The notes beneath the pieces were generated by a model, which worked only from the letters and a program-made list of their open reading frames with translations, was not told the DNA's origin and did not search any database. The position numbers were made by a program, and so were the translations under genes. Below are positions 33,335-38,243 of a stretch of 38,243 nucleotides of DNA, piece by piece. Source of the DNA: an uncultured bacterium. GTDB lineage: Bacteria > Margulisbacteria > WOR-1 > XYC2-FULL-46-14 > WPAF01. The DNA is taken from positions 1-38,243 of the forward strand of contig CAIYXV010000003.1 of the NCBI GenBank assembly GCA_903930225.1. The letters run 5' to 3'. The number at the start of each line of letters is the position of its first letter. Position 1 is the stretch's first letter.

Positions 33335-33490
33335 TCAGGCACCCTTGATGTTGTACTTGATATCGGGCCTTGAGCTGAGCTTGATGAACTTCAGCGGTTT
33401 AGCCTGCTTTTTTTCAAGCTTAGCCCTTATGCCCGACATGACGTCCTTTAGCTTTATCTTTTCAATATTATCTTTTTCTTCTTCCGTCAT
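33335..33490 (-). CDS. 51-residue unknown basic protein
   Basis: ATG 33490, stop 33335-33337. AAGGAG lies eight bases before the ATG, giving strong start support. Sequence: acidic-basic start 'MTEEEKDNIEKIKLKD', then 'MSGIRAKLEKKQAKPL', then 'KFIKLSSRPDIKYNIKGA'; strongly Lys-rich after residue 10. Its first 23 bases overlap the YgiT-type zinc-finger gene, so the two are coupled. No family recognised. Short enough to be missed by a length cut-off. Confidence 0.65.
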   Translation of the reverse strand: MTEEEKDNIEKIKLKDVMSGIRAKLEKKQAKPLKFIKLSSRPDIKYNIKGA

Positions 33491-33722
33491 ATTTTCCGCT
33501 CCTTGATTTTATCCGGTTTTTAAATTCGTCGAACAAAAGCTCAAGCACCCAGACCTCGTTGCAGCCATCACAAAACAGGGCCGGGACCCCTTCTAAAATA
33601 TATATCTGCTTTTTCTTTATGAGCCGGAGAGTTATTCTCTTTAATTTGAGCGGGCCGCCGCAGACCAGGCAGGACTTAAGCTTTGGGGGATAAACAACCT
33701 TGCTTTTACCCTTTTGCTTCAT
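33468..33722 (-). CDS. YgiT-type zinc-finger protein
   Basis: 84 residues. Two Cys pairs, 'CLVCGG' (about 18-23) and 'CDGCNEVW' (about 51-58), with 'EGVPALFCDGCNEVWV' matching the YgiT/MqsA N-terminal zinc finger. The helix-turn-helix half of MqsA is missing, so it is a stand-alone finger. In other genomes such proteins are paired with small toxins; here the coupled partner is the 51-residue protein, which does not look like a known toxin. TATAAT lies five bases before ATG 33722. Confidence 0.8.
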   Translation of the reverse strand: MKQKGKSKVVYPPKLKSCLVCGGPLKLKRITLRLIKKKQIYILEGVPALFCDGCNEVWVLELLFDEFKNRIKSRSGKYDGRRKR

Positions 33723-33757: not shown

Positions 33758-36082
33758 TTAAAATGAGAGAGAAACGCTCCCGCTGACAGCCGTTGTGCTG
33801 TTTTGAGCCTCGGAATTGTCCGCAAAATGTTTTACGCTCAAGTTCAAGTAAGTGGACCTTGAGAGATTTTGGGTATAATTGCCGAAGACCACATTGCCAA
33901 GATAAGCGCCGCACCGGTAAAGCGAACTTGTATTGAAAAGAAGGGTCCGCTCCGGCGTCAGGTCAAAGCGCAATTTCAGCATTGAAGCTTCCTTGCCCAT
34001 CCCGCTGTATACGGCGTATCCGGGATCCGAAAGGCCGCCGTTATAAAAATATTCGCCCAGGCGCTGGTAACCGAGCGAAAGGTTGAATCCCAGATTCGGC
34101 GAAAAATAGGTGAGGGAGTCCTGGAACGCGTTCGTATCAATATTGCCTGATGTCCCGATATATTGCAGGACATCCTGGTTTGAGTAATCGACTTTTGAGG
34201 CCTCGGCGTTCGCCTCGAACTGCCCGAAGATCTTCAGTTTTGCGCCGGCGTAAGTTTGCGTCACCCGGGAAGGAAGCTGCGCGGTCATAGTCGGGTCGAA
34301 GATATTCGTGACCAGATTTCCTCCAGCCGAGATCTGAAGGGGAGCGTCAAAAGAGATCAGGTATAATGAAGCAAAATTTGAATCGGTCGAGACATCTTGT
34401 TTAAAGGACAGTTTCCCGGCCGCGGCGTTCAGGCTGCAAAGCGGGGAATCAATCGAATAGGTGGCCTGATCGACCGTATTGTCAAAAAACAGGCTCGCGC
34501 CAAACGGGCTCCACCCGTAGTAATTGTATATCCGTCCGGCCTTAAGCGAGAATGAAGGGTTGTTATATGAAAGATAGGCTTCCCCAATGTTCAAATATTG
34601 AGGGCTGGTCGATCCGAAATACAGGTTGTTCTGTAAATAGATATAGGATGAAAATGAATTGCTCAATCTGCGGTTGACCGTTAAATTGAGCGACTGCAGA
34701 CCGAATATATTTTTCAGGTCCGTTCCCGGGGATTTTCCGTTGGCCACAGTAGAGTAATTAAATGACGTGTTTAAGTAAGTGCGGAAACCGTAATCCGGGG
34801 GCGGGGTAATTAAGATCTCCTCTTCTTTGATTTTAAGATAAAGCGCCTTCAGGGTGCGCACCGAATAATAAGCCAGATCATACCTTACGGCAAAAGAATC
34901 GCTCCTGAATTCCTTGTCGCGCCCGCCGGGCAGGACCCCCAGCCAGATCAGCTTCTGGATCGCCGAGTAAGCGAAATTATCCTTGGACACATCGCGGTAG
35001 CCGGCTTCGGGACTGGCCTCTTGCATCTTGACCTGTGACATCAGGATATTTTCGATCGGATTCAAAAGATAATACGCCAGCTGATAACGGGTAATGGGCA
35101 ATTCGCCGTTTAAGATCTCGGTCCGGTTGCCGGGAGGCAGTACCGAGAGCGCGATCAGTTTTTGCACCGAACGGTAAGCGGGATTAGACGTCCCGACATC
35201 CTTATAGGAGAGAGCCGCGTCCGCCAGATCAAGCTCCCCTTCTTCGCCGATCAAAAGCTTTTCCAGCACCTTGCTCAAAAGATTCAACAATTCAAATTTA
35301 TTTATTTGACTGGTCCCGTTAAACTTTTGTCCGGGAGATTTTGGCAATATCCCGACATCTACCAGCTCATCGATCGACTCCCTGGCATAATGATCTTCCG
35401 GTATATCAATGAACCCTGATTTGGGAACGGCCGGTTGCGTTACCTCTCCCGGTTTTTTCTCCGGTCTTAAGTAATCCAGAACGTTGGCGATAAAGATCGA
35501 CATTTCCATGCGATTTAACATTAATTCCCCGTCAAAAAACCGGAGTTTTCCCCCCGGCAAAAGCCCGGCGCCGATCAGTTTTTGCAGATAGGGATAATAG
35601 GGATCACTCTCTGATATGTTTGAATATCCCAGTTCATTGGAAACTGCGGGAAGTTGACGTCCCAGGGAGGATTCGATAAAACGGCACAGGGTATAATAAA
35701 AATAATATCGGGTGAGCCTGAGGCCGCCGTTAAAATTGCCGTTAGCGTCCGGCTCAAAAACTTTAAGAGCGGACAACCTTCCCGCCGCTTCATTAGCGTA
35801 GGAGGTGGAGGGAACGTCTTTATAGACAACCGTCGGCGGCGGCGGCGGTTTGTCAGGATAGGCCAAGGCATAGACGCGGTCAAGAATGACCGCCAGCTGA
35901 TATTTGTTCACATTCCCGCCGGCTTCGAACCTTTTATTTTTGGCGACTTCAATGATCCCTTCCCTTACCAGCTTGCTGACGAACGGATAGGCGGGATGGC
36001 CGGGCTTTAAGTCCTTGAACTGGGCAAGGGCGGGCGGGATTGTCAGGAAAAGAATTAATATCGCCAGTAAACACTTTTTCAC
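33758..36082 (-). CDS. SLH-domain outer-membrane porin (six SLH-like repeats)
   Basis: 774 residues, GTG start at 36082 overlapping the regulator stop (GTGA). Signal peptide to Ala-Leu-Ala-Gln about residue 20. Six SLH-like segments of about 50-55 residues follow (starting near 21, 88, 150, 222, 290 and 358); each begins F/Y-x-D-(V/L/I) and runs through 'A(Y/E)..(V/I)..L(V/I).(L/V)G(I/V)' to 'NK/TRYQLA..L'. Then a beta-barrel (about 425-774) ending in Ser-Leu-Ser-Phe, a terminal Phe outer-membrane signal. SLH porins attach the outer membrane to peptidoglycan-linked polymers; OmpM and cyanobacterial porins usually have one SLH, so six is unusual. Confidence 0.88.
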   Translation of the reverse strand: MKKCLLAILILFLTIPPALAQFKDLKPGHPAYPFVSKLVREGIIEVAKNKRFEAGGNVNKYQLAVILDRVYALAYPDKPPPPPTVVYKDVPSTSYANEAAGRLSALKVFEPDANGNFNGGLRLTRYYFYYTLCRFIESSLGRQLPAVSNELGYSNISESDPYYPYLQKLIGAGLLPGGKLRFFDGELMLNRMEMSIFIANVLDYLRPEKKPGEVTQPAVPKSGFIDIPEDHYARESIDELVDVGILPKSPGQKFNGTSQINKFELLNLLSKVLEKLLIGEEGELDLADAALSYKDVGTSNPAYRSVQKLIALSVLPPGNRTEILNGELPITRYQLAYYLLNPIENILMSQVKMQEASPEAGYRDVSKDNFAYSAIQKLIWLGVLPGGRDKEFRSDSFAVRYDLAYYSVRTLKALYLKIKEEEILITPPPDYGFRTYLNTSFNYSTVANGKSPGTDLKNIFGLQSLNLTVNRRLSNSFSSYIYLQNNLYFGSTSPQYLNIGEAYLSYNNPSFSLKAGRIYNYYGWSPFGASLFFDNTVDQATYSIDSPLCSLNAAAGKLSFKQDVSTDSNFASLYLISFDAPLQISAGGNLVTNIFDPTMTAQLPSRVTQTYAGAKLKIFGQFEANAEASKVDYSNQDVLQYIGTSGNIDTNAFQDSLTYFSPNLGFNLSLGYQRLGEYFYNGGLSDPGYAVYSGMGKEASMLKLRFDLTPERTLLFNTSSLYRCGAYLGNVVFGNYTQNLSRSTYLNLSVKHFADNSEAQNSTTAVSGSVSLSF

Positions 36083-36459
36083 TTTTTGGTTTTTGCCAGG
36101 GCCCGGTCAACCATTTCGTAAATGACTTCCATCATAAACGGTTTGCTGATATAGTCCATCGCCCCGAATTGCACGGCATCCATCTTGGTCTTTGCGGTCG
36201 CGTAAGCGGTCACGATCACGCACTCGGTCTTGGGATCGATCCCCTTGATCTTTTTTAAGATGTCCAGCCCGATCTCCTTCCCCTCGAACCGCAGGTCAAT
36301 AAAAACAATGTCATAATGATCCTTCTGGGCCGCGGCCGCGGCTTCATTGAGATTTTGAGCGGTGGCTACCACGTAGTCCTTGATGCCCAGGATCATCTTG
36401 AAAGATTCAAGGACCGAAAGCTCATCATCAACCACCAGGCATTTAACGATTTTAGCCAT
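36079..36459 (-). CDS. CheY-like single-domain response regulator
   Basis: 126 residues, receiver domain only. Acidic pocket 'VVDDE' (about 9-13), phosphoacceptor Asp in 'VFIDLRF' (about 55), Thr of 'VTAY', and Lys in 'SKPF' are all present, so phosphorylation is expected. No output domain, so it would signal by binding partners or by phosphotransfer. It follows the small membrane protein directly (the ATG abuts its stop) and overlaps the porin start. No kinase is visible in the window. Confidence 0.92.
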   Translation of the reverse strand: MAKIVKCLVVDDELSVLESFKMILGIKDYVVATAQNLNEAAAAAQKDHYDIVFIDLRFEGKEIGLDILKKIKGIDPKTECVIVTAYATAKTKMDAVQFGAMDYISKPFMMEVIYEMVDRALAKTKK

Positions 36460-36690
36460 TTATCTTACCTGACCCTTCGACAAAAGAAGCTCAAAAATAT
36501 TCAGCCTTGCCACTACCACGCGGCTTCCATCCTTTGGCGCGGTAAGCTCGATTTGGTATTGCCATAAGACCCCGACTGTAATGAGCAAAAATAAAAATAC
36601 TACAAGCGTCAAGATCTCGACCTGCCGGGCCTGTTTCCCCATATCCTGGGAAAGGACCGATAAGAAGAATTTCTTGATCTTTTCCCTCAT
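36460..36690 (-). CDS. Small single-pass membrane protein
   Basis: 76 residues. Charged N-terminus ('MREKIKKFFLSVLSQDMGKQ'), one membrane helix (about 27-43, 'ILTLVVFLFLLITVGVLW'), then a short beta-like outside part ('IELTAPKDGSRVVVARL'). Arg/Lys-rich before the helix puts the N-terminus inside. It begins one base after the exporter stop, so the same mRNA. No family recognised; it could be an exported substrate or a partner of the exporter. Confidence 0.8.
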   Translation of the reverse strand: MREKIKKFFLSVLSQDMGKQARQVEILTLVVFLFLLITVGVLWQYQIELTAPKDGSRVVVARLNIFELLLSKGQVR

Positions 36691-36691
36691 C

Positions 36692-38243
36692 TCAATCCTC
36701 GACCTCCAGTTCCTTGATCCGCTCCAGTTTTTCGCTGGCCGCTTTTCTGATCAGGTTCACATCGTATGGCGACAAGCTGAGCTCCTGGCCAATTTTAGCA
36801 TAGGAGAAAGAATCCTCATAATAAAGCTTCAATATTGTTTTCTCTATTGGGGAAAGCTTGAGGGCTTTTTTGATCTGTTCCTTTTCTCTTTCCCTTTTAG
36901 CGATCAGCGCTCTAATTGCGATCTCTTCGGAGAGATCTTCCGTTTCTTCCCTTCTGGTAGAGGCGCGGTAGAACCGGTAAAATTCACCTTTTTTGGAAAT
37001 AAGGTCCTCGAATGTCCCGGATTCCACGATGCGGTTTTCGGAAATGACATATATTTTATCGGCATTGTTAAGGGTCGAAAGCCGGTGGGAGATCATGATC
37101 ACGGTCTTGTCCTCGATATGATTTTTTATATTCTCATATATTTTGGCCTCACTGATGCCGTCGAGCGCGGAAGTGGCCTCATCCAGGACCAGTATCTTGA
37201 CATCCCGCAACAGCGCGCGGGCAATGGAAAGCCGCTGCATCTGCCCGCCCGAAAGCCCAACCCCCCCCTCGCCGATCCTGGTGTCGTAGCCGTTGGCCAT
37301 GGTCAGGATGAAATCATGGATCTCTGCCAGTTTCGCGGCTTCGATCATCTTCTCCTCCGTCGGATTGATACAGCCATAAGATAAGTTCTCCCGGACCGTG
37401 CCGGAAAAAATAATGACATCCTGCGAAACGATCGAAACGTTGGCGCGCAGGGTCATCAATGAAACCGTTTTCAAGTTGTATTTATCGACATATAGCTCCC
37501 CCTCGGTCGGGATAATGAATCTTAAGATAAGGTCAATAATGGTCGATTTGCCGGCGCCGGAGGCGCCGCAAATGGCGGTTATTTTTCCGGGATCGGCGCT
37601 CAAACTGACATCCCTCAAGATGTATTCTTCTGAATCAGGGTAATGGAAGCCGACTTTATCAAAGCTGATCTTGCCCTCGATCTGATATAAAACATAGGTC
37701 TTAGCATCCTGATAAACCTCGGGATCGGCGTTTAAGATCTCATTGACCCGGTTGATCGAAACCATGCCTCTGGCAACCGATTTATAAATAGTCCCCAGAT
37801 CCATGAATGGCTGGTGGATCTGGCCGAGGTACACCAGGAGAGCCATGATCTCTCCGATAGAGATGTGGCCGGTGATGACCCGATAGCCGCCATACCATCC
37901 TAGAAAGCTGGTCCAGAGGGTTATCAGGGCGGCGTCAAAGAACGAATTGAAAAGCCCGAGGAACAAGTTCTCCCTGACCAAGGTGAACATTTTTAAAAGC
38001 TTATCTATCAAACGGCCGGTCTCGTGGATCTCCTGGTTGAACGATTTAATGGTTTTTACATTGCTCATTTTTTCCTGGTAGAAGGAATAGACCAGGGATT
38101 CCTGCTTTTGTATTTTTTTCTGAATGTCCTCAAATAATCCGGCGAAAAAGCGGGTCTCGATGAAATACAGGGGGACCCCGAGCAGCGCCAGAAGGGTCAG
38201 GTTGCGGTCTATCATCAGGCAGATGACGAACAGCGCGACCAGG
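36692..38243 (-). CDS. ABC exporter (membrane + ATPase), N-terminus cut by the window, with sigma-70 region-4-like C-terminal tail
   Basis: Open to the window edge; an internal Met at 38215 lies within a membrane helix, so the start is outside. A type-I exporter membrane domain (about residues 1-185 counted from 38215) is followed by the ATPase: Walker A GASGAGKST (about 216-224), LSGGQ (about 320), 'LVLDEATSALD' (about 340-350), and His-switch 'MISHRL'. All ATPase motifs are intact. After about 420 there is a charged helix and then about 454-503: 'LSPIEKTILKLYY', 'SYAKIGQELSLSP' and 'VNLIRKAASEKLERI', the layout of sigma-70 region 4. Transports lipid, peptide or drug (unknown). Confidence 0.9.
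   Translation of the reverse strand, partial: LVALFVICLMIDRNLTLLALLGVPLYFIETRFFAGLFEDIQKKIQKQESLVYSFYQEKMSNVKTIKSFNQEIHETGRLIDKLLKMFTLVRENLFLGLFNSFFDAALITLWTSFLGWYGGYRVITGHISIGEIMALLVYLGQIHQPFMDLGTIYKSVARGMVSINRVNEILNADPEVYQDAKTYVLYQIEGKISFDKVGFHYPDSEEYILRDVSLSADPGKITAICGASGAGKSTIIDLILRFIIPTEGELYVDKYNLKTVSLMTLRANVSIVSQDVIIFSGTVRENLSYGCINPTEEKMIEAAKLAEIHDFILTMANGYDTRIGEGGVGLSGGQMQRLSIARALLRDVKILVLDEATSALDGISEAKIYENIKNHIEDKTVIMISHRLSTLNNADKIYVISENRIVESGTFEDLISKKGEFYRFYRASTRREETEDLSEEIAIRALIAKREREKEQIKKALKLSPIEKTILKLYYEDSFSYAKIGQELSLSPYDVNLIRKAASEKLERIKELEVED

Follow-up and report, generated by a model that had tools for sequence, protein, structure and literature searches.

Sigma mimicry by PhyR is exerted by a full sigma-like domain, with both regions 2 and 4, and this domain binds NepR. 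Domains appended to ABC ATPases commonly regulate or recruit (PMC10710835, PMC11466899), and MlaB, a protein of the anti-sigma-antagonist STAS type, binds to an ABC ATPase that depends on it for stability (PMC7367683). Literature searches for a published description of an ABC exporter fused to sigma-70 region 4 returned nothing relevant. Here, we describe such a fusion and the genes that accompany it.

An ABC Exporter With a C-Terminal Region-4-Like Domain

The window analyzed here is the entire contig C3 (38,243 bp) of a genome (G000) of 1.69 Mb in 137 contigs, which is 99% complete. The nearest named relatives are Saganbacteria/Margulisiibacteriota MAGs, and relatives above 50% are confined to Margulisiibacteriota in a scan of 84,980 species that detects close relatives only. 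The terminal gene (36692..38242, minus strand) comprises the 3′ 516 codons of a type IV (MsbA/TAP-like) ABC exporter, with Pfam ABC_membrane and ABC_tran in one chain together with the P-loop, the signature, and the H-loop characteristic of this class. It is cut by the contig end, and approximately 150 N-terminal residues are absent from the window chain; a search of the same assembly for the missing N-terminus matched only a paralog. The 507-aa start given in the earlier note is an internal ATG. Full-length orthologs have 662–667 aa if they carry the tail, and 603 aa in G019, which has no tail. The best NCBIfam matches of the window exporter are TAP2, MsbA_rel, HlyB, and MsbA, and, on a chain short by approximately 150 residues, it scores below all equivalog cut-offs (e.g., 319.5 bits against 602 for MsbA, TIGR02203). 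The earlier note also placed the exporter at the head of an operon; this rests on the relatives, in most of which the upstream neighbor is divergent, as the gene is truncated in the window.

The claim that an unbroken frame leads from the exporter into a region-4-like tail proved correct, the 516 codons passing through ABC_membrane, ABC_tran, and Sigma70_r4. The ATPase is followed by a charged helical linker (36860..36969, minus strand), poorly conserved at 41% mean identity, and then by a helix-turn-helix (HTH) tail of about 55 residues (36692..36859, minus strand), delineated by the Sigma70_r4 match, the alignment, the structural model, and conservation. The search of the C-terminus against Sigma70_r4 (PF04545), proposed in the earlier note, gave a score above the curated cut-off of 24.1 for the last 91 residues (27.8 bits, E 1.8e-6) and one slightly under it for the whole 516-aa frame (23.6 bits). 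In the genome-wide scan the exporter tail passes the cut-off as well (27.4 bits), being the weakest among five such region-4 matches in the source genome, and the NCBIfam model sigma70-ECF matches the window exporter with E 2.4e-7. No match to sigma-70 region 2 was found in the window exporter chain, whose missing N-terminus is the transmembrane domain in the orthologs.

Structure prediction, likewise proposed, yielded a confident HTH. The AlphaFold2 model, built from the 7-row tail alignment, has helices at residues 40–51, 56–63, and 67–89, with pLDDT about 94–96 over most of the HTH, while the model of the full exporter (pLDDT 60) is too poor for placing the tail. Foldseek with the tail model retrieved sigma region 4 chains (3hug, 2h27, 1ku7) and other HTH proteins with probability about 1; the nominal E-values are 0.04 and up, none being <0.001, as is expected of a 50-residue fold. 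The matched classes include sigma factors, region 4 with the anti-sigma factor RslA, region 4 on −35 DNA, and PhyR. Taken together, the profile scores and the predicted fold support the tail as a true sigma-70 region-4-like domain.

The recognition helix mostly reads PYDxxxIRKSAxxKL, with the Tyr invariant in all seven tails. It aligns with residue 585 of E. coli sigma70, a position at which the sigma factor of the class itself carries Ser. The invariant Tyr and the largely conserved IRKSA stretch suggest a specific ligand surface. The E. coli −35 contact residues are absent from the tails; since they are likewise absent from the class's real sigma factor, their absence is not diagnostic.

Conservation and Distribution of the Fusion

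Whole-genome search of 57 genomes and profile searches of 74 Margulisiibacteriota ("Saganbacteria") genomes identified exporter orthologs in eight of the 74 phylum genomes (G000, G003, G007, G010, G017, G019, G027, and G029). All but the G019 ortholog carry the tail, so the homologs in related genomes largely keep the fusion, and an artifact of sequencing or assembly is ruled out by the six other genomes with the same fusion. When the six closer tail-bearers are compared, identity averages 75.6% for the transmembrane domain (TMD), 71.6% for the nucleotide-binding domain (NBD), 41.0% for the linker, and 64.6% for the HTH; against the divergent G007, it is 39.5% for the HTH and 11.7% for the linker. 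The dN/dS ratio, calculated from few unsaturated pairs, is about 0.19 for the HTH, 0.11 for the ATPase, and 0.43 for the linker, and identities at the three codon positions of the HTH are 0.61/0.80/0.44; both observations agree with selection on the protein.

The tail was found neither in the paralogs examined nor in the exporters examined from outside the phylum, and in five non-carrier genomes the exporter matches of a combined NBD-plus-tail profile stop at the NBD end. In G019, the exporter ends cleanly just past the NBD, its stop overlapping the start of the small gene; a separate tail gene in this genome is ruled out, the sole tail-profile match there looking like a sigma factor. The inner branches of the exporter tree are poorly resolved for dating the loss of the tail, and by parsimony, given that the divergent G007 has the tail, its loss in G019 would be secondary. 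Exporter carriers are patchy within families f1 and f9, which suggests gain and loss. Distantly related genomes retain the tail together with the same partner genes, so the fusion represents a genuine new combination of domains.

Outside the exporters, the region 4 closest to the tail belongs to a conserved, class-wide sigma factor of about 200 aa (L094–L110), the best match of the tail profile after the exporters themselves (E about 1e-11). It is a possible source of the tail domain.

Genes Linked to the Exporter

The neighbors listed in the earlier note, that is, a small membrane protein, a CheY-like receiver, and an SLH porin, all recur with the exporter. The small protein (76 aa; 36460..36690, minus strand) is a single-span membrane protein by hydropathy and belongs to no Pfam or NCBIfam family; its orthologs have 71–76 aa and one hydrophobic span. 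In a profile search of the 74 genomes it occurs in all eight exporter genomes, adjoining this exporter only, and no convincing copy was found outside the carriers in the phylum. A weak match with one internal stop lies at G047:C34:19514-19681 (E 1e-3). That the small protein is a RiPP precursor is thought unlikely, given its 19-residue hydrophobic span.

The receiver (36079..36459, minus strand; Response_reg E 1.2e-24) is a single CheY-like domain without an output domain, in which the phospho-acceptor site is kept (D11, D12, D55, T84, and K106 are invariant). Exporter, small protein, and receiver follow one another in this order in seven genomes, the operon of G007 having no receiver, and in most relatives the exporter stop and the small-protein start overlap, usually by 4 bp. 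Single-domain receivers of the same family as this one occur in arrays elsewhere in the class, and G007 has close receiver paralogs elsewhere in its genome. Tandem regulators of this family are found, two at L146:5496-6460 (G000:C132) and three at L147:6847-8057 (G007:C44), and their close relatives occur in non-carriers too.

The SLH-repeat protein (774 aa; 33758..36082, minus strand) has an SLH match and, to judge from its sequence, including the C-terminal Phe, is probably an outer-membrane beta-barrel (OmpM-like). It is orthologous over its full length at 31–53% identity. All eight exporter carriers have an ortholog; of the 66 remaining genomes only G030 has one, on a contig that breaks off within the porin gene. 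With the porin in nine and the exporter in eight of 74 genomes, the chance of such an overlap is ~6e-10, shared ancestry being ignored. In the window, the porin gene lies 3′ of the receiver gene in the same orientation and overlaps it by 4 bp, and in four relatives it is convergent; thus, the linkage survives rearrangement. A DUF1015 gene adjoins the porin gene in four relatives (L081:1247-2587, L086:977-2323, L087:458-1798, and L137:7445-8785). Another window gene (33468-33722, minus strand) encodes an 84-aa protein with CxxC pairs, similar to a YgiT-type zinc finger and with no Pfam match.

Some relatives encode B12/radical-SAM proteins nearby. In G007, a run of genes of the B12/radical-SAM (ApyD-like) and SPASM (DynA-like) types encloses the exporter and the small protein; G003 has three ApyD-like genes in divergent orientation to the exporter, G010 has one, and in G019 B12/radical-SAM genes lie between the operon and the porin. 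None are seen in the window, which lacks the region upstream of the exporter. These genes resemble RiPP enzymes, with all scores well under the equivalog cut-offs. A modified peptide is a lead as to what the exporter might transport. The G007 run itself (L082:4433-19668), dense in B12-binding radical SAM and radical SAM/SPASM genes, looks like an uncharacterised modified-peptide cluster.

Possible Functions of the Tail

We estimate at about one in two the probability that the tail is a cytosolic docking or regulatory domain of an envelope export system, binding a protein partner to gate or localise export. This system of the Saganbacteria class would consist of the exporter, which we infer from its class to be a homodimer, the small protein as its single-span membrane partner, the phosphorylatable CheY-like receiver, and an SLH barrel dedicated to it in the outer membrane. 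The HTH tail would hang from the ATPase by the helical linker, remaining in the cytosol near the ATPase, and would bind the receiver, the small membrane protein, or another regulator, export being gated or localised as a result. The tail is absent in G019, where the small protein and the receiver are kept, and diverged in G007, where the operon has no receiver; hence, neither a tail–receiver nor a tail–small-protein pairing is obligatory in every genome.

Alternatively, the exporter could be a membrane-tethered regulator, whose tail binds its own or another promoter and whose conformation or occupancy alters transcription. Membrane-bound one-component regulators are widespread, but the text of the survey describing them does not mention transporter fusions (PMC10269533). 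The fold is a bona fide DNA-binding one, its solved matches include region 4 on −35 DNA (2h27, 1ku7), and the G007 tail is basic (+9); however, the net charge of the other six tails is close to zero (−2 to +3), though the same holds for the class's own sigma region 4, the recognition helix mostly has P-Y-D near its start, and no operator was found, so that we regard this reading as unlikely. Binding of an anti-sigma factor or RNA polymerase, coupling the exporter state to a sigma regulon, would be in line with PhyR and sigma/anti-sigma complexes among the structural matches (9cb6, 2lfw, 3hug), with the class-wide sigma factor as the best non-exporter match, and with the receiver encoded next door. 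Yet only region 4 is present here, compared with the full sigma-like domain in PhyR, no anti-sigma gene is located nearby, and the receiver is a separate protein, all of which makes this coupling quite unlikely. Quite improbable, too, is a bifunctional exporter that doubles as a transcription regulator; at the membrane, its tail would bind either promoter DNA or RNA polymerase/anti-sigma, and the export state would directly set gene expression, possibly that of the system's porin and receiver.

The tail might also derive from the capture of a region-4 fragment and have little function, as G019 keeps the system without the tail and related exporters have none; nevertheless, across several families the tail is far better conserved than the linker, with residues invariant in seven out of seven tails, and we consider such a neutral passenger very unlikely. 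Finally, OpuA, an ABC importer involved in osmoregulation, contains a cationic HTH motif close to the membrane (PMC10710835), and the exporter tail could similarly sense ionic strength or the membrane. The OpuA motif, however, is positively charged and lies in the NBD, whereas the exporter tail is C-terminal, roughly neutral, sigma-like, and attached by a long linker, and hence a sensor of this kind is highly improbable.

Comparison With Known Systems

A DNA/protein-binding module of sigma factors is thus conserved on an ABC exporter in several families and within a defined gene set. If the tail docks a partner, as in the reading we prefer, "plug-on" regulatory domains of ABC proteins extend to a transcription-factor fold; if it signals, a single protein links export to regulation. 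The locus also makes an export system accessible to testing in a little-known lineage close to Cyanobacteria.

The window exporter shares with type IV (MsbA/TAP-like) ABC exporters the TMD and the NBD with the P-loop, LSGGQ, D-loop, and H-loop, but differs from them in the region-4 HTH at its C-terminus and in having an operon of its own. With sigma-70 region 4 and the PhyR sigma-like domain the tail has in common the HTH fold and the sequence motif, but it has no region 2 and is fused to a transporter. A small, probably regulatory domain is likewise appended to the NBD in MalK (TOBE), MetN (NIL), ModC, and OpuA (CBS) (PMC11466899, PMC10710835); these, however, are importers with other folds, none of which is a sigma region 4, while the tail described here is on an exporter. 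In MlaF–MlaB, too, an envelope transporter has a sigma-regulation-type fold recruited to its ABC ATPase (PMC7367683), but MlaB is a separate STAS protein and MlaFEDB is a lipid transporter, in contrast to the fused exporter tail. Lastly, OmpM-type SLH porins combine N-terminal SLH repeats with a beta-barrel-like C-terminal part (PMC10628300), as the window porin probably does; it differs in having several SLH repeats and in being genomically tied to one exporter.
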